Shown one piece after another: positions 47,557 to 54,920 of a stretch of DNA of 64,000 bases (position 1 is its first letter; each line of letters begins with the position of its first letter). The notes under the pieces were generated by a model. It ran no database searches, had not been told where the DNA came from, and was given only the letters and a program-made list of their open reading frames with translations. Origin of the DNA: Paenibacillus sp. R14(2021) (GTDB lineage Bacteria; Bacillota; Bacilli; Paenibacillales; Paenibacillaceae); NCBI RefSeq assembly GCF_019431355.1, contig NZ_CP080269.1:2887501-2951500 (forward strand). Reading direction: 5' to 3'. Made by a program: the position numbers and the translations under genes.

Positions 47557-47625
47557 AAAAGAAGCAATGGCTCAAATTCATTTTTCGACTCGCTCCTCAT
47601 CTCTTCCCTTGATTAAAACACAAAT

Positions 47626-47674
47626 GACCCACAAGAGGGGTCACTTTTTTCAAAGTGTCCTTCTTGTGGGTCAC
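47626..47674 (+). terminator. Terminator after the AraC gene
   Basis: TGACCC / GGGTCA followed directly by CTTTTTTC forms a first hairpin. A larger inverted repeat (GACCCACAAGA... / ...TCTTGTGGGTC) embraces it and can form an alternative long stem. Confidence 0.7.
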
Positions 47675-47696
47675 AGTTCAACCTTCTTCGTTGGGT

Positions 47697-47822
47697 TACA
47701 CACTGCAAGCGACGCATAGCCTAACGGCAGCCATTGTAGGCATGGAACCAACCGGTTATTACTGGCTTAATCTCTCAAACTGGCTTTCCGAGCATTAATT
47801 TGAAGTGGTTCTAGTTTTGGGT
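47697..47822 (+). mobile_element. Remnant of an IS110-family transposase
   Basis: A plus-strand frame reads LTAAIVGMEPTGYYWLN and NLSNWLSEH, then TAA (47796-47798), then in the same frame FEVVLV. This is the RuvC-like N-terminal core of IS110-family transposases (usual text VGMEPTGHYW ... GIEVVLVNP), with a stop where a residue should be. Only about 40 codons are left and no ends are recognisable, so the element is dead. It lies at the left edge of the glycan cluster. Confidence 0.75.
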
Positions 47823-47940
47823 AACCGCAACAGTCTATAACATTAAAATATTGTCTCCACTGCTTTTCTTCGGCAGGTGTAAAGTCCTCATTCGTCCATC
47901 CGTCAATCCTTTTAAATTGCTTTAAAAGAAGCCTAAATTT
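47767..47940 (-). pseudogene. Possible 3' fragment of an unidentified gene
   Basis: A 57-codon minus-strand frame without any start codon follows the end of the HAD gene in another frame. The part 47940-47823 has protein-like composition (RIDGWTNEDFTPAEEKQW, then RQYFNVIDCCGYP). The rest overlaps the IS110 remnant on the opposite strand. It looks like the tail of a gene whose upstream part was lost. I do not recognise the family, and chance is possible. Confidence 0.3.
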
Positions 47941-48593
47941 CTAATTTCATATAAACTTGAAACCTCATAATCTGCCAAGTAATGGGGATCGACTACAGCA
48001 TTTTTGTAAATGCCGTTCGTTCGCTTAACGCAAACCGTTGTCCATCCTAAGCGTTTGGCCGTAATAAAGTCTTTATGTGAATTATCACCGATATACACAC
48101 ATGCGGCAGGAGAAATACCTAGCCCATTTGTCATAAGCATATATGGAATTGGACTAGGCTTCCAATACTGCCAACCTAGCTCATCCGAGTATACGATATA
48201 GTTTAAATAGAAGTGTATCCCTAAAGATTTTACTTTTTGCTTCTGCGCGACTAAAAACCCATCGGTGATTAATCCTGTCTTCGCTTTGGTTGAGGCATAC
48301 TGCAAGCACCATAGGGCATCCGGGTAAAGTTGAATCTGCGGAAGATGTTCACGATAGACCTTAAGCATCTGCAGGATCAATTCATAATCATATTGTACGT
48401 TCAATAAGTTCAAAGCTTCATTGAATATATTCCCTTTATGTCCTTTAGAGTAAAGCAGCATCGCTTCTTCGAAAAAACCTTGACGATTGAAACGTCTTCG
48501 AACCCAGCGGTCTAATTCCTGAAAACCGCTAATCACATACTCATTCTCGCTGTAAAGTGTATCGTCCAAATCAAACACAATGGCTTGTTTCAT
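47922..48593 (-). CDS. HAD-superfamily phosphatase
   Basis: A 223-residue hydrolase. Motif I FDLDDTLY carries nucleophile Asp8 and Asp10, motif II is LITDGF, motif III a Lys in WKPSPIPY and motif IV GDNSHKDF. It is of the subfamily I type with a helical cap (residues 18-90). It overlaps the ATP-grasp gene by ATGA (48590-48593), so the two are coupled and probably act on the same pathway. ATP-grasp/HAD pairs occur in capsule loci, where their substrates are mostly unknown. Last intact gene of the glycan operon. Confidence 0.86.
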   Translation of the reverse strand: MKQAIVFDLDDTLYSENEYVISGFQELDRWVRRRFNRQGFFEEAMLLYSKGHKGNIFNEALNLLNVQYDYELILQMLKVYREHLPQIQLYPDALWCLQYASTKAKTGLITDGFLVAQKQKVKSLGIHFYLNYIVYSDELGWQYWKPSPIPYMLMTNGLGISPAACVYIGDNSHKDFITAKRLGWTTVCVKRTNGIYKNAVVDPHYLADYEVSSLYEIRNLGFF

Positions 48594-49576
48594 AGAAATT
48601 CGTCCTTATGAGCATAAAAGGCTTCATCATAGCGAAGCATGACTAACCCGTCCTGCCAATCATCCATATCCGTCCAATCCTCGGTCTGGTTTAAAAGCCA
48701 TTTAATTATGGTCTTACTATACTTAGCCCCAGCAGCTAAGGAAAGCGGGATCCCTCCGCCAAAGCGTGGATTGATTTCTATAAAAACGATTCTCTCTTCT
48801 CTAGTCACAAAGCACTGCAAAGTGATGCAGCCTATAGCACCAGGAAGCGCTTCAACCGCTTTCTTGGCTGCAGCCATAATGGCGAAGTTTTTCACCGTCA
48901 TCCCTTTGCTGACTTCACCCGCTCTTGTTTCCATTCGTAAACGCGGAACGGCTGCACGTGCTCTTCCTTGAAAATCCATCAAAACATCAATCGTATATTC
49001 TAGGCCTGTCACATATTCCTGAAGCAAGGGGTTAGGTGTATATTTCAGAAAAAATCGTAACTCCTCAGAGTTATTAATCTTTGTTACCCCTTTACTGCTG
49101 CTCCCGTTGGCGGGCTTTAACATCAGAGGATAATAGGCATCCGGATCAGATAGAATCTGTGCGGGATCTAACGTTTTAGGAGTGTTAAATTGAATACTCT
49201 CAAAAAAAGAAGCCGTATTTCTTTTGTCAAAACAAATACGGTTGACCTCCGAAGAACTAATGAGCACAAAAACTCCTATTTTCTCGAATTCATTGCGATG
49301 ATCCGCAAGCACTTGCAATTCAGGGTCGATTAGAGGGATCAATAGCTGAATTTCATGCTTTTTGCAAACTTCCAACAGGCTTGAAATGTAGTTAAATTCT
49401 GTTACGCAAGGAAGCAATTCATGGACATCTCCAACCTTGGCTGCAGGGGCAAATTTTTGCATATCCGCAGTGACGATGGTTCCCTCTATAACCAACTCAT
49501 TCAATGCTTCTTTAAAAGATCGGATTAAGGATACTCTCCTACCCGCACTGGTAAACAGAATATTGAATGCAGTCAT
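48590..49576 (-). CDS. ATP-grasp ligase, carbamoyl-phosphate-synthase-like
   Basis: A ~328-residue ATP-grasp enzyme. The N-terminal pre-ATP-grasp domain begins FNILFTSAGRRVSL, the ATP-binding loop is KPANGSSSKGV near residue 153, and the metal site IEINPRFGGGIPLS near 270 has the Glu-x-Asn pattern. Such enzymes join a carboxylate to an amine through an acyl phosphate, for example adding an amino acid to an amino sugar. ATG 49576 or the in-frame GTG 49585 may be the start; both follow AGGAGG. The frame upstream of these runs into the neighbouring gene and is not used. Confidence 0.84.
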   Translation of the reverse strand: MTAFNILFTSAGRRVSLIRSFKEALNELVIEGTIVTADMQKFAPAAKVGDVHELLPCVTEFNYISSLLEVCKKHEIQLLIPLIDPELQVLADHRNEFEKIGVFVLISSSEVNRICFDKRNTASFFESIQFNTPKTLDPAQILSDPDAYYPLMLKPANGSSSKGVTKINNSEELRFFLKYTPNPLLQEYVTGLEYTIDVLMDFQGRARAAVPRLRMETRAGEVSKGMTVKNFAIMAAAKKAVEALPGAIGCITLQCFVTREERIVFIEINPRFGGGIPLSLAAGAKYSKTIIKWLLNQTEDWTDMDDWQDGLVMLRYDEAFYAHKDEFL

Positions 49577-49604: not shown

Positions 49605-50579
49605 TCACCTAGTCTTTCCGGTAAACCTCCATAGCTCATCTACAAATTCTCTGACTCTTATATCGGTTGTATGGCGGGAATGAACCAACTCATAGCCCTT
49701 CTCCGCTATTGCATTTCTTGCATCTTCATGTCTCAGATAATACTGGGCCATATCCATAAAATTGCTTTTATTGATTTCAATAAACGTCTTCTTATGGATG
49801 AACCCCAAATCTTCTAATTCATGAAAACCGGAGGCTAATAGCAAGGTCCCGCAAGCCGGGATTTCAAAGTATTTTCCTACCGCGAAATCATACTTGGACC
49901 CGCACGTCAGGAACATTTTCGCTCGGTTGATTTCCTTCGCGTATTTTTCATCAATAAACAACCTCTTTTTCTCTTTTTCCGAAACCCATTTATACCCCGG
50001 ATGCCCATGTGAAACAAATCCTTTAACATTTTGCATTTCACGGTAAATCTTTTTACGAAGAGGGTACAATTGATTGATTTTGCCCATCATTAAATAATCA
50101 ATGGTTTTCTCTACTTTATATCTGCGAAATACCGGCTTATAAACATGATTCGGCAACCATCTAAATCGATTACGGTATTGCGGAAAATAGTTCAAAAAGG
50201 CGTCACGATAGTGGGCGAAGACCAACTCGATTTTATGCTCTTTCACGTAACTAGAGAAATCATTATTGATTCTGTTGACATCGTGAAATAAAATTCCCTT
50301 TGGAATGTTTACTGTATTCATTCCGGTCGGGAGCCCATAGACACCTCGAATAGATTCAAAATCATCGAAAAAAATAAAATCTGGAACGAATTCCAATTTA
50401 TTTAAAATATCAGGCAGGTGTCCTCCGTTTTTTTTCTTACCGTCTCGCACCCCTAGCTTAAAATGAACCCTAACATCCGGCAGCTTAGCTAGTTCCAATT
50501 TAAAATAATGATCGGGTTTGTAGGTGAAAGTAGACCAATTAATTGTAAAATATAAGATATTTAATTTATTCAAGATCAA
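49605..50579 (-). CDS. CgeB-like glycosyltransferase, copy 1
   Basis: A 324-residue GT-B-fold transferase with the C-terminal glycosyltransferase-1 domain (KYFEIPACGTLLLASGF near residue 235, the donor-binding E-x-P/CG motif). The N-terminus (LNILYFTINWSTFTYKPDHY) is an acceptor domain of the CgeB type, related to spore-crust and maturation glycosyltransferases. It is a tandem paralogue of the next upstream gene. The last ~110 codons are almost identical, the first ~200 much less so. No signal or membrane segment. Confidence 0.83.
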   Translation of the reverse strand: MILNKLNILYFTINWSTFTYKPDHYFKLELAKLPDVRVHFKLGVRDGKKKNGGHLPDILNKLEFVPDFIFFDDFESIRGVYGLPTGMNTVNIPKGILFHDVNRINNDFSSYVKEHKIELVFAHYRDAFLNYFPQYRNRFRWLPNHVYKPVFRRYKVEKTIDYLMMGKINQLYPLRKKIYREMQNVKGFVSHGHPGYKWVSEKEKKRLFIDEKYAKEINRAKMFLTCGSKYDFAVGKYFEIPACGTLLLASGFHELEDLGFIHKKTFIEINKSNFMDMAQYYLRHEDARNAIAEKGYELVHSRHTTDIRVREFVDELWRFTGKTR

Positions 50580-50610: not shown

Positions 50611-51561
50611 CTATTCCTGCCTAGTCTTTCCGGTAAACTTCCATAGCTCATCTACAAATTCTCTGACTCTTATATCGGTTGTATGGCGGGAACGAACCAA
50701 CTCATAGCCCTTCTCCGTTATTGCATTTCTTACATCTTCATGTCTCAGATAATACTGGGCCTTATCCATAAAATTGCTTTTATTGATTTCAATAAACGTC
50801 TTCTTATGGATGAACCCCAAATCTTCTAATTCATTAAAACCGGAGGCTAACAGCAAGGTCCCGCAAGCCGGGATTTCAAAGTATTTTCCTACCGCGAAAT
50901 CATACTTGGACCCGCATGTCAGGAACATTTTCGCTCGGTTGATTTCCTTCGCATAATTTTGGTCTAGATACAGTGTTTCTTTTTCATTATTTGTAAACCA
51001 TCTATATCCCGGATGCTCGTGTGAAACAAAACCTTCTAACTTATGCATTTTACGGATTATTTCTTTACGAAGAGGGTAATAGTCTTTGACTCTGCCCATC
51101 ATTAAATAATCAATAGTCTTCTGAACATTGTATCTGTGGAAAACCGGTTTATAAGCATGATTTGGCAGCCATCTCAACCGGTCATGATATTTCGGGAAAT
51201 ATTTGAGAAATGCATCACGGTAGTGGACGAAGATCAAATCAATCTTGTTCTCTTTGACGTAACTTCTGAAAGTATCATTGGATCTGTTGACATCGTGAAA
51301 TAAAATACCTTTTGGGATGCTTACTTTATTCATACCGGTGGGGAGTGCGGACAAATTACGACTATGTTTAAAATTATCCATATAAATAAAATCAGGAATA
51401 AAGTCCAACGTACTAAGAATATCCGGTAAATACCCACCTTGTTCCCTGAAATGAACATGAACATCCGGCAGAGTAGCCAATTCCAGTTTGAAATAATGAT
51501 CAGGTTTATAAGTGTATGTCGACCAATCGATTGTAAAATATAAAATATTTAGTTTATTCAA
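50611..51561 (-). CDS. CgeB-like glycosyltransferase, copy 2
   Basis: A 316-residue paralogue of the adjacent transferase, with the same layout and donor motif KYFEIPACGTLLLASGF near residue 229. It lacks about eight residues near position 45. It overlaps the dehydratase gene by ATGA (51558-51561). Both copies are intact, so they probably add different sugars or use different acceptors, while a shared donor domain is kept similar by recombination. Confidence 0.83.
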   Translation of the reverse strand: MNKLNILYFTIDWSTYTYKPDHYFKLELATLPDVHVHFREQGGYLPDILSTLDFIPDFIYMDNFKHSRNLSALPTGMNKVSIPKGILFHDVNRSNDTFRSYVKENKIDLIFVHYRDAFLKYFPKYHDRLRWLPNHAYKPVFHRYNVQKTIDYLMMGRVKDYYPLRKEIIRKMHKLEGFVSHEHPGYRWFTNNEKETLYLDQNYAKEINRAKMFLTCGSKYDFAVGKYFEIPACGTLLLASGFNELEDLGFIHKKTFIEINKSNFMDKAQYYLRHEDVRNAITEKGYELVRSRHTTDIRVREFVDELWKFTGKTRQE

Positions 51562-52817
51562 CTTTTGTCCACCGACCTTAGATTCTGTCCGGTATTCTTG
51601 AAACCTGGAATAAATTGTCTGATGACAGAATAGATTTCTTCCGAAATGGCAAACATTTCTTCGTGAGATACTATCTCTTCCAATGTCCTCAAAGTTTCAA
51701 ATACATCTTCCTCTAAGAATACATGGGGTTCACAAACATAGATGGAACCATGCTTCGTAGCTTTTAATTTTTCTTCGGCATTAAAGAGCTCTTCAACCAG
51801 TTTCTCGCCCGGACCTATGCCAGTAAAAACGATCTTGATGTCTTCATTTGGTTCTAAACCGGACATTCGTATGACATGGTAGGCCAAATCGATGATTTTG
51901 ACTGGCTTCCCCATATCAAGAATGAAAGTTTCTCCGCCTGTGGCCATCCCAGCAGCTTTAAAGACGAGCTGCACAGCTTCCTGAATCGTCATGAAATAGC
52001 GAACCATATCCGGATGGGATACCTTAATGGGACCCCCGTTCTTTATTTGCTGTTTAAACAGAGGCACCACGCTTCCCCGGCTGCCTAAAACATTCCCAAA
52101 TCTAACAATCACAAATTTTGTATCCTTGGATTTCCCCATCGCTAGTATCATAATTTCAGCCAATCGTTTAGAAGCCCCCATCACGCTGGATGCGTCAACC
52201 CCCTTATCCGAAGAAATAAAAACTAGCCTTTCAGCTTTAAATTTTAGCGCACATTCGGCAACGTTCCGGGTCCCAAACACATTGTTTTTTATCGCTTCGG
52301 ATGGATTTAATTCCATTAATCGCACGTGTTTATGGGCTGCTGCATGAAAGATAATGTGGGGCTGAAAATAGGAGAATACGTCTTCCAGCCTTTTCTTGTC
52401 TTGAATATCGGCAATAACCGATTCGGTAGCGATATTGGGGAAATTCAATTTTAATTCATTCTCGATCGTAAAAATACTGTACTCACCATGACCAAGCAAT
52501 ATTAGTTTTCGAGGAAGAAAACCGCAAATATGCCTGCAAATCTCTGAGCCTATTGAACCTCCGGCCCCCGTAACTAGTATCACTTTATCTCTCACTAATT
52601 CAGATGCTGCTTCCAAATCAATGCGAACCGGTTCCCTTCCTAATATTTCTTCAATCCTTATATCTGGAATATGGTTGTTGCTCTGTTGAGCTCTATTCTT
52701 TCGGGCTTCAGAACGTCTTGAATGAAACCGGAAGTAAAAAAAGATTCCAATCGTTAAAATTAATAGCAGCAAGACATAAAAGACATTGATCGAGTAATGA
52801 TATAGAAAATTGTTCAA
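51558..52817 (-). CDS. CapD/PglF-like UDP-sugar 4,6-dehydratase, short membrane-anchored form
   Basis: A 419-residue protein: one N-terminal membrane helix (FYVLLLLILTIGIFFYF), a ~45-residue linker and an extended SDR domain. The NAD loop is GAGGSIG (84-90). The active site SSDKGVDASSVMGASKR has Met where classic SDRs have Tyr, as in the PglF/FlaA1 family that converts UDP-GlcNAc to a 4-keto-6-deoxy sugar. Full-length PglF has four to five membrane helices and ~590 residues, so this one is shortened. The DegT aminotransferase next door would convert its product. Confidence 0.86.
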   Translation of the reverse strand: MNNFLYHYSINVFYVLLLLILTIGIFFYFRFHSRRSEARKNRAQQSNNHIPDIRIEEILGREPVRIDLEAASELVRDKVILVTGAGGSIGSEICRHICGFLPRKLILLGHGEYSIFTIENELKLNFPNIATESVIADIQDKKRLEDVFSYFQPHIIFHAAAHKHVRLMELNPSEAIKNNVFGTRNVAECALKFKAERLVFISSDKGVDASSVMGASKRLAEIMILAMGKSKDTKFVIVRFGNVLGSRGSVVPLFKQQIKNGGPIKVSHPDMVRYFMTIQEAVQLVFKAAGMATGGETFILDMGKPVKIIDLAYHVIRMSGLEPNEDIKIVFTGIGPGEKLVEELFNAEEKLKATKHGSIYVCEPHVFLEEDVFETLRTLEEIVSHEEMFAISEEIYSVIRQFIPGFKNTGQNLRSVDKS

Positions 52818-52845: not shown

Positions 52846-54006
52846 TCAATACGTTCGTTTTCCGTTCATGATTGTTATTACGCATTCAATCACCCGATCC
52901 TGATCTTCTTCCGAAAGATTGGAACCCGAAGGCAGACATAGACCTTGATGAAACAATTGATTAGAGATGCTCTCATCCGGAAAATGCGGGAAGTACATGC
53001 ATGATTTGAAAAGAGGCTGGAGATGCATTGGCTTCCAGACGGGGCGCGATTCTATGTTGTTCTCGGCCAAAGCCTCTATAATTTGAATCGGGGATACACC
53101 GGTTATTAGCGGGTTGACTGTCAATGCCGTAAGCCAGCGGGTAGAATAACTATTGGCAGGTTCAGGCATAAACTCTATACCCTCACAAGGTGAAAGTGCT
53201 GAATAATAGCGTTGAAAAATGTTCCTCCGGTCAGCTATCCTTTCATTCAGTACTTGTAATTGTCCTCTTCCGATGGCTGCTAGGACGTTACTCAGCCTGT
53301 AATTAAATCCAATTTCACTGTGCTGATAATGCAAGGCTGGATCTCTGGATTGGGTAGCCCAAAAACGCATTTTCTTCATGGCGTCGAGATCATCGGAAAC
53401 CACCATTCCTCCACCTGAAGCAGTTATGATCTTATTACCGTTAAAAGAAAAGACTCCAAACTTTCCAAACGTTCCACTCGCCTTTTTATGGAAGGTAGCG
53501 CCTAGAGATTCTGCCGCATCCTCTATAACCGGAACACGGTATTGCTCACAAATCTTCAAAATGGATAACATATTTGCACTCTGCCCAAACAGATTAACGA
53601 CGATCACCGCTTTGGGCAGCTTTCCGAGATTATCGAAATGAATAAATGCTCGTTCTAATGCCGATGGCGACATATTCCATGTTTCTATTTCAGAGTCAAT
53701 AAAGACGGGTATTGCACCTTGATACAAGATAGGATTGGCACTTGCAACAAACGTAAAAGTGGAACAGAATACGATATCCCCGTGACCTACCTCTAAAACC
53801 TTTAATGCTAAATGAAGTGCACTTGTGCCGGAATTTACTGCCAAAGCCCCATTCGTTCCTACATATTCTGCCATCTCTTTTTCGAAAGCATCTACATGCG
53901 GACCAAGTGGAGCAATCCAATTTGATTTGAAAGCCTCTTGGATCAGATTCAGTTCCTCGCAGCCCATATGTGGAGGAGATAGAAAAATCCGCTTGTTTTG
54001 ATTCAT
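52846..54006 (-). CDS. DegT/DnrJ/EryC1/StrS sugar aminotransferase
   Basis: A 386-residue PLP enzyme that aminates keto-sugar nucleotides. PLP lysine Lys192 is in FSFNGNKIITASGGG, and IEDAAESLGA near 161 carries the cofactor Asp. It resembles PglE/LegC-type enzymes acting on UDP-4-keto sugars. First gene of the operon; a start ATG at 54006 follows GAGGGGG. With the dehydratase it should yield a 4-amino-4,6-dideoxy-HexNAc such as a bacillosamine precursor (inference from the family pair). Confidence 0.9.
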   Translation of the reverse strand: MNQNKRIFLSPPHMGCEELNLIQEAFKSNWIAPLGPHVDAFEKEMAEYVGTNGALAVNSGTSALHLALKVLEVGHGDIVFCSTFTFVASANPILYQGAIPVFIDSEIETWNMSPSALERAFIHFDNLGKLPKAVIVVNLFGQSANMLSILKICEQYRVPVIEDAAESLGATFHKKASGTFGKFGVFSFNGNKIITASGGGMVVSDDLDAMKKMRFWATQSRDPALHYQHSEIGFNYRLSNVLAAIGRGQLQVLNERIADRRNIFQRYYSALSPCEGIEFMPEPANSYSTRWLTALTVNPLITGVSPIQIIEALAENNIESRPVWKPMHLQPLFKSCMYFPHFPDESISNQLFHQGLCLPSGSNLSEEDQDRVIECVITIMNGKRTY

Positions 54007-54049
54007 CCCGTTCCCCCTCGATTACTCAAAGTAGTATGCCGGAATTTTT

Positions 54050-54078
54050 GGTATACGATATAAAATATTCATTCCCAA
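54050..54078 (-). promoter_or_regulatory. Weak candidate promoter of the glycan operon
   Basis: Minus-strand TTGGGA (54078-54073) and TATACC (54055-54050) with 17 bases between lie about 45 bases before the aminotransferase start. Both hexamers are imperfect. Confidence 0.3.
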
Positions 54079-54275
54079 GGCATACTGCTTGGACTAGCAC
54101 AATAATCAAGCTGATATCAAAAAAATCTATGGATTTTTCCATAGATTTGAATAGCGTTATTCTCTTGCTTGATGCGCTTATCGCGACTCACGTTTCATAA
54201 CAATTTGGTACATTAGACAATACGTTCACTTCCTTGGTTTCCGTATTAATTACTTTCGTTTCTCTAGTATTATCA

Positions 54276-54596
54276 TTTTTCACGATTAAAGGGTTGGCTC
54301 GCTTCAGAGATTACGTGAAAGAGCTCGAGGATGAGGCAGGTAATCCCCCAACTATTGTTTTGGAGGCGGCCCGTCATTACCAGGCAACCGCTGCTTCCTT
54401 TATTCGAGACCGATACCGATGCGGCAGACGCGTATCTGCTCGGCTAGTTGTTCTACAAAGAGGAACTCGAGAAACCCTTTTAAAGAAGCCATAATGAGCA
54501 GCAATTTTGTGAGTCAATCCTGGTGCAATCCCTTCTTCAATACCAGGAGCATCTATCTCACCTCGAAACTCTTAACACCTATTGGCTGGTATAGTT
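54276..54596 (+). mobile_element. Decayed IS110-family transposase
   Basis: Three collinear pieces in shifting plus-strand frames match an IS110-family transposase: RDYVKELEDEAGNPPTIVLEA (two parts, about 54304-54411), then TDAADAYLLG, a stop, and LFYKEELEKPF (54409-54486), then ILVQSLLQYQEHLSHLETL (about 54510-54580). The motifs PPTIVLEA..HY and TDAADAY are hallmarks of the DEDD catalytic domain. Frameshifts, a deletion and stops make it inactive. It sits just upstream of the glycan operon. Confidence 0.75.
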
Positions 54597-54599
54597 CAA

Positions 54600-54734
54600 T
54601 CAAATAATGTTATATTTCTCTTTAAAGTCCACCGAGAGCTCGCTCCAAACATCGTATTTATTTCCATCCGGCTGAAGTAGTTTGTGCCAGTTATCATTCC
54701 AATATATTGGATCCCTAAAAAACGTGGAATTTTT
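54600..54734 (-). pseudogene. Possible 3' fragment of an unidentified gene
   Basis: A 44-codon minus-strand frame without a good start encodes FFRDPIYWNDNWHKLLQPDG and ends SELSVDFKEKYNII, a composition that looks like a real soluble protein end. It lies between the transposase remnant and the IS-end-like repeats. I do not recognise the family; it may belong to a lost glycan gene. Confidence 0.35.
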
Positions 54735-54777
54735 TCAACCAATTAATGATAATCAAATTCATTCAGCTGATAAGAGA

Positions 54778-54822
54778 ACAAAAAAGTCCTGATAAATCAA
54801 GGGATTCTTGATTATCAGGACA
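54778..54822 (-). terminator. Terminator reading leftward from the methylase side
   Basis: On the minus strand TCCTGATAATCAAG pairs with CTTGATTTATCAGGA (one bulge) and is followed by CTTTTTTG. It would end transcription of the methyltransferase gene or of a lost IS gene. Confidence 0.75.
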
Positions 54823-54832
54823 GACGAAGCTG

Positions 54833-54900
54833 TGCCAAAATTACGTTACAAATCTATGCCAGAACAAGTTACAATCGGTGCCAAACTGAATTACAACTCA
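54833..54900. repeat. Three short direct repeats resembling an insertion-sequence end
   Basis: Three imperfect ~22-bp units start TGCCAAAATTACGTTACAAA (54833), TGCCAGAACAAGTTACAAT (54857) and TGCCAAACTGAATTACAACT (54879). The shared pattern is TGCCA...TTACAA at 22-24-base spacing, about two helical turns. Arrays like this mark the ends of IS21-type elements, where they bind transposase. No istA/istB gene is present, so this would be an orphan end; the assignment is tentative. Confidence 0.45.
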
Positions 54901-54920
54901 CACACAACAGTCTCTGGATC

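Follow-up and report, generated by a model that had tools for sequence, protein, structure and literature searches.

An ATP-grasp ligase and a HAD phosphatase in a Paenibacillus gene cassette that probably makes a 4-N-acylated bacillosamine-type sugar nucleotide

We analyzed a 64,000-nucleotide stretch of DNA from Paenibacillus sp. R14(2021) (hereafter, the window), in which a six-gene cassette occupies positions 54006-47922. All genes of the cassette lie on the minus strand, with short gaps or overlaps between them, in the order aminotransferase, 4,6-dehydratase, two CgeB-like glycosyltransferases, ATP-grasp and HAD, with the ATP-grasp/HAD pair forming its end. The dehydratase, the aminotransferase and the two glycosyltransferases that the initial annotation had placed upstream of this pair were all found on the same strand and assigned by Pfam. 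The features are as follows.

52846..54006, minus strand: PLP aminotransferase of the PglE/LegC type (DegT/DnrJ/EryC1, PF01041, 320.6 bits)
51558..52817, minus strand: membrane-anchored UDP-GlcNAc 4,6-dehydratase of the PglF type (Polysacc_synt_2, PF02719, 372.4 bits)
50611..51561, minus strand: glycosyltransferase 1 (GT1), CgeB-like, GT-B fold (PF13524, Glyco_trans_1_2; AlphaFold2 model, pLDDT 80.8)
49605..50579, minus strand: glycosyltransferase 2 (GT2), a paralogue of GT1 (Glyco_trans_1_2; approximately 75% protein identity to GT1)
48590..49576, minus strand: ATP-grasp carboxylate-amine ligase (PylC-like N domain plus ATP-grasp), predicted to N-acylate a sugar 4-amine (profiles, model and motifs)
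47922..48593, minus strand: HAD-IA phosphatase (HAD_2, 69.6 bits, and catalytic motifs)
47625..47690, minus strand: inverted repeat GACCCACAAGAAGG...CCTCTTGTGGGTC downstream of the HAD gene (strong, read directly from the sequence)

The start of the HAD gene lies within the end of the ATP-grasp gene, and the two share the four bases ATGA, at the positions and with the overlap that had been annotated. This layout is typical of translational coupling. The ATP-grasp gene starts at ATG 49576 and possesses its own ribosome-binding site (AGGAGGTG) just past the GT2 gene. The start that was assigned automatically to this open reading frame (49639) was rejected, as it falls within the final part of the glycosyltransferase gene before it and the relatives align from 49576. 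Further, the start of GT1 overlaps the stop of the dehydratase gene by four bases. The inverted repeat at 47625-47690 is a possible terminator.

The GC content of the cassette was 40.5%, compared with 51.7% for the window. The cassette is bordered by rlmB/trkA-like genes and, at the opposite end, by an AraC-type regulator together with sugar-acid genes. The cassette was probably acquired, because just 14 of the 295 family members that were sampled had a match to its ATP-grasp protein at E 1e-40 and the sequence after rlmB varies among congeners. The latter was indicated by a comparison of glycosyltransferases and a comparison of rlmB empty sites, both of which show solely that the downstream side of rlmB differs within the genus. 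The immediate flanks of the cassette (54007-54920 and 47560-47921) are non-coding and low in GC, and resemble decayed sequence.

Among solved structures, the dehydratase was closest to WlaL/PglF (5bjw, 283 bits), whereas inverting enzymes scored at most 135 bits (134.8 bits for the inverting UDP-GlcNAc dehydratase 2gn4). It carries the motifs SSDK at 202 and VMGASK at 212, with Met at the position where Tyr is usual in the SDR family, and its N terminus is hydrophobic. An active-site Met in place of Tyr is a mark of PglF-type retaining dehydratases. Thus the enzyme is of the PglF retaining type by its greater similarity to PglF than to PseB/FlaA1, its Met for Tyr and its N-terminal membrane segment. 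The aminotransferase scored 364.7 bits against the NCBIfam LegC profile, under the cut-off of 420, and was therefore assigned by its nearest homologues. The best solved structures were 1o61 (327 bits) and 4ztc (324 bits), both of which we take to be C. jejuni PglE, and the motif of the PLP lysine was found. Elsewhere in the genome there was just one weaker relative each of the dehydratase and the aminotransferase (39% and 37% identity). Given that the two proteins were closest to PglF and PglE, we predict from their sequences that the amine is UDP-2-acetamido-4-amino-2,4,6-trideoxyglucose. The Campylobacter pathway proceeds from PglF and PglE to UDP-diNAc-bacillosamine through the acetyltransferase PglD; the cassette instead has the ATP-grasp and HAD proteins at this place.

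The ATP-grasp protein matched PylC-like_N (98.6 bits), ATP-grasp_3 (73.4) and ATPgrasp_Ter (64.6), and passed the Pfam cut-offs for PF02655 and PF21360. Its AlphaFold2 model (pLDDT 87.8) was most similar to 2pn1, an unassigned protein (Z 33.5), followed by a long tier of ATP-grasp enzymes at Z of approximately 25, including PylC (4ffr, Z 25.3). K118, K154, E267, N269 and R271 were invariant in the alignment, and a basic motif, PRxRxxTRxGExxK(G), was invariant in the HAD-linked set of Bacillota. The fold, the nucleotide-site Lys and the metal-binding Glu/Asn place the protein in the ATP-grasp carboxylate-amine ligase superfamily, and the fold and ATP-site residues are shared with PylC, other ATP-grasp ligases and the PRK12767 "carbamoyl phosphate synthase-like" family, to which 2pn1 belongs. 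The profile of that family (NF009405) gave the best NCBIfam score, 354.6 bits, which is below the curated cut-off of 390; the ATP-grasp protein of P. eucommiae (349.4) and that of a close relative, L077 (377.9), also fell short. The name of the family itself assigns no substrate, and carbamoyl phosphate synthesis was rejected, as there is a single ATP-grasp unit and no carbamoyl phosphate synthase context. The residues that separate the HAD-linked enzymes, such as T195 and G225, are not numerous enough to indicate a substrate.

The HAD protein retains all of its catalytic motifs (DLDDT at 8, TDG at 110, KPSP at 145 and GDN at 169), and the closest solved structure was 4ygq (60 bits). HAD phosphatases are promiscuous, and adjacency therefore does not fix the substrate.

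GT1 and GT2 both belong to PF13524, the family that includes B. subtilis CgeB. This domain and the GT-B fold identify CgeB-like glycosyltransferases; the model of GT1 matched GT-B enzymes such as TreT, MshA and BshA in Foldseek searches (E of approximately 1e-10 to 1e-8). The last 300 bp or so of the two genes are 95-99% identical, compared with about 55-80% for the first 675 bp or so, a pattern suggestive of a recent gene conversion event within this tandem pair. Genes for a phosphoglycosyltransferase, a flippase or a polymerase are absent from the cassette, so that the acceptor is likely to be cytoplasmic, such as a protein.

A scan of genome contigs with a single protein reached P. eucommiae alone, in which the genes are arranged as aminotransferase, dehydratase, glycosyltransferase, ATP-grasp and HAD, in the same order with one glycosyltransferase and at 67-77% identity. 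Phage records yielded one weak match. We compared 27 Bacillota loci chosen by ATP-grasp similarity alone, with the window counted among the 12 in which HAD is adjacent. A PglE-type aminotransferase lay within a few kb in all 12 HAD-linked loci and in 4 of the 15 loci without HAD (Fisher p 1.8e-4, for loci that are related and not independent), and the aminotransferases of the 12 were 52-77% identical to that of the window. These neighborhood statistics support the pairing proposed in the initial annotation, which a lack of co-occurrence elsewhere would have refuted. A phosphoglycosyltransferase gene lies directly before the ATP-grasp gene, unfused, at 9 of the 12 HAD-linked loci; the order in most Bacillota relatives was aminotransferase, phosphoglycosyltransferase, ATP-grasp and HAD, or phosphoglycosyltransferase, ATP-grasp, HAD and aminotransferase.

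The pair was also found on plasmids of Priestia, Palleronia, Roseibium and Sinorhizobium, and on a Rickettsiales plasmid together with a GDP-sugar dehydratase and an aminotransferase. In Segatella (Bacteroidota), the ATP-grasp and HAD genes are separated by two short genes. The arrangement is more than chance, as the gene order is the same in P. eucommiae and the ATP-grasp/HAD pair recurs in 10 further Bacillota loci and on several plasmids, within this phylum and others. When the presence of HAD was mapped onto the ATP-grasp tree, it required 4 changes, compared with a mean of 11.4 in shuffles. The adjacency kept across Bacillota, Bacteroidota and Alphaproteobacteria and this clustering suggest that the two proteins share a joint step. 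In one locus (L017:6095-7996, minus strand), HAD and the PglE-type aminotransferase form a single open frame of 633 aa, possibly a natural fusion or the result of a lost HAD stop codon.

Other relatives lack HAD. Near the next closest ATP-grasp gene (L077:7436-8419, 56.6% identity), no relatives of HAD, the aminotransferase or the dehydratase were found, and the same was true of L078. An aminotransferase without HAD was also seen at several loci whose ATP-grasp enzymes are more distantly related (L037 of E. coli, L076 and L080). In two of them (L076:6217-7488 and L080:5634-6905), a gene resembling PLP Orn/DAP decarboxylases, a call based on a profile run on the L076 protein only, lies between the PglE-type aminotransferase and the ATP-grasp gene. 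That the same type of aminotransferase is accompanied here by a different gene suggests that each helper gene may go with its own acyl group. In Alphaproteobacteria, a formyltransferase gene directly precedes the pair in L033 (5063-6984), and a gene in L038 (5080-6963) looks similar; the N. oralis pgl locus is likewise described as having a formyl transferase (PMC6959607).

ATP-grasp enzymes that acylate UDP-4-amino sugars have been described before. In Neisseria, PglB2, an ATP-grasp/phosphoglycosyltransferase, is responsible for the 4-glyceramido sugar GATDH, a 4-glyceramido-2-acetamido trideoxyhexose (PMC11130364). GATDH was detected by mass spectrometry in the type strain of N. oralis, and a HAD hydrolase is present at the N. 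oralis pgl locus (PMC6959607). In B. cereus, the title of a study cited in PMC8987622 describes acylation by the ATP-grasp enzyme Pyl with 2-oxoglutarate as the acid. Compared by description, the Neisseria system and the cassette agree in the UDP-4-amino precursor that their dehydratase and aminotransferase are predicted to make, in an ATP-grasp unit that stands in for the acetyltransferase, and in a HAD protein, which in Neisseria is that of the N. oralis locus. The Bacillota clusters of aminotransferase, phosphoglycosyltransferase, ATP-grasp and HAD amount to the PglB2 parts list in unfused form. The window differs in that its ATP-grasp enzyme is a free protein, encoded by a gene overlapping that of HAD, rather than a PglB2-type fusion, and in that two CgeB-like glycosyltransferases replace the phosphoglycosyltransferase. 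Likewise by description, the B. cereus Pat/Pyl pathway (UDP-yelosamine) resembles the cassette in combining an aminotransferase with an ATP-grasp ligase whose substrate is a UDP-4-amino sugar, whereas Pyl uses 2-oxoglutarate and FucNAc-4N, a galacto sugar. To our knowledge, no HAD protein is part of the Pat/Pyl pathway. With these two precedents the acyl-amino sugar is less unusual than had been suggested. If our reading is right, the novelty would lie in the HAD step and in the association with CgeB-like glycosyltransferases in place of a phosphoglycosyltransferase. Our literature search turned up no biochemical work on members of this ATP-grasp clade, and nothing relevant on an ATP-grasp/HAD or 3-phosphoglycerate route.

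We propose, with somewhat better than even confidence, that the ATP-grasp and HAD proteins enable the cassette to produce, and then to use, a 4-N-acylated bacillosamine-type sugar nucleotide. By homology, the PglF-like dehydratase would convert UDP-GlcNAc into the 4-keto-6-deoxy sugar, from which the PglE-like aminotransferase would form UDP-2-acetamido-4-amino-2,4,6-trideoxyglucose. Homology and co-occurrence further suggest that the ATP-grasp protein, replacing PglD, would activate a carboxylic acid with ATP and join it to the 4-amine. The acid would most likely be a phosphorylated hydroxy acid, with 3-phosphoglycerate as the best guess, since the presence of a phosphatase is most simply accounted for if the ligase takes this plentiful acid and HAD then unmasks the glyceramide. 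Removal of the phosphate by HAD would give a glyceramido or other hydroxyacyl sugar; alternatively, HAD may act first and make the free hydroxy acid. Because a phosphoglycosyltransferase is missing from the cassette, transfer of the acylated or companion sugars to the acceptor may then fall to the two soluble GT-B enzymes. The initial annotation had likewise envisaged amidation of a UDP-4-amino sugar by the ATP-grasp protein and dephosphorylation by HAD; this fits the co-occurrence and the Pyl and PglB2 precedents, and is not new in kind.

In the literature examined, we found no explanation of how PglB2-type enzymes get their glyceryl group. Ligation of a phospho-acid followed by dephosphorylation, as the ATP-grasp/HAD pairing suggests, is a simple and testable answer. 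A broader and distinctly tentative view is that the pair is a general two-step module of several phyla, which takes an abundant phospho-acid, such as 3-phosphoglycerate, directly from central metabolism, ligates it to a sugar amine and strips off the phosphate. In this cassette, the module would no longer be tied to the assembly of lipid-linked glycans and would instead supply soluble protein glycosyltransferases. If true, the ligate-then-dephosphorylate route would hold for many bacteria, and gene content could help to predict the acyl groups of surface sugars that have not been seen.

The precedent of Pyl, as given by the title cited in PMC8987622, and the HAD-less loci L076 and L080, with a decarboxylase-like gene in between and an acyl group that may vary accordingly, would also be consistent with a ligase whose substrate is a free acid (an amino, 2-oxo or hydroxy acid) while HAD acts elsewhere, for instance on a sugar phosphate or in a housekeeping role for the cluster. 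We consider this rather unlikely, given that HAD stays next to the ATP-grasp gene in Bacillota and Alphaproteobacteria and one gene pair away in Bacteroidota, and that HAD-linked enzymes cluster on the tree. It is still less probable, and in our judgment improbable, that the ATP-grasp protein acylates another amine or amidates a sugar carboxylate, its link with the aminotransferase reflecting shared residence in polysaccharide clusters. Aminotransferases and dehydratases are indeed common in such clusters, and the orphan relatives in L077 and L078 would fit. However, the cassette has neither a uronic-acid enzyme nor an acetyltransferase to use the 4-amine, the sole NeuD-type acetyltransferase above the cut-off is far away (G000:3769891), and HAD-linked ATP-grasp genes accompany the PglE subtype specifically. 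Acylation of the sugar 4-amine with a HAD step is the reading that we prefer.

To this preferred reading, decoration of the spore surface could be added, with the CgeB-like glycosyltransferases acting in the mother cell and attaching the acylated sugar to a protein of the coat or crust. The membership of both enzymes in the family of CgeB is suggestive only, and the likely cytoplasmic acceptor is compatible with this addition. The spore surface named in the initial annotation gained no support: a scan for sigma-E/sigma-K motifs upstream of the operon, in the window and in P. eucommiae, detected no sporulation promoter, and alignment of the two upstream regions revealed just a short common GTCCAAGCA block. 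Further, related glycosyltransferases elsewhere occur in mixed surface-glycan clusters, and the nearby SspI-like gene lies on the other strand, past two housekeeping genes. We therefore regard the role in spores as doubtful.

In congeners, two mutually similar proteins of 136-138 aa without a Pfam match (L090:7957-8373 and L091:3670-4080) are encoded near CgeB-like and GT-D-like glycosyltransferases, and are possible glycosylation targets.
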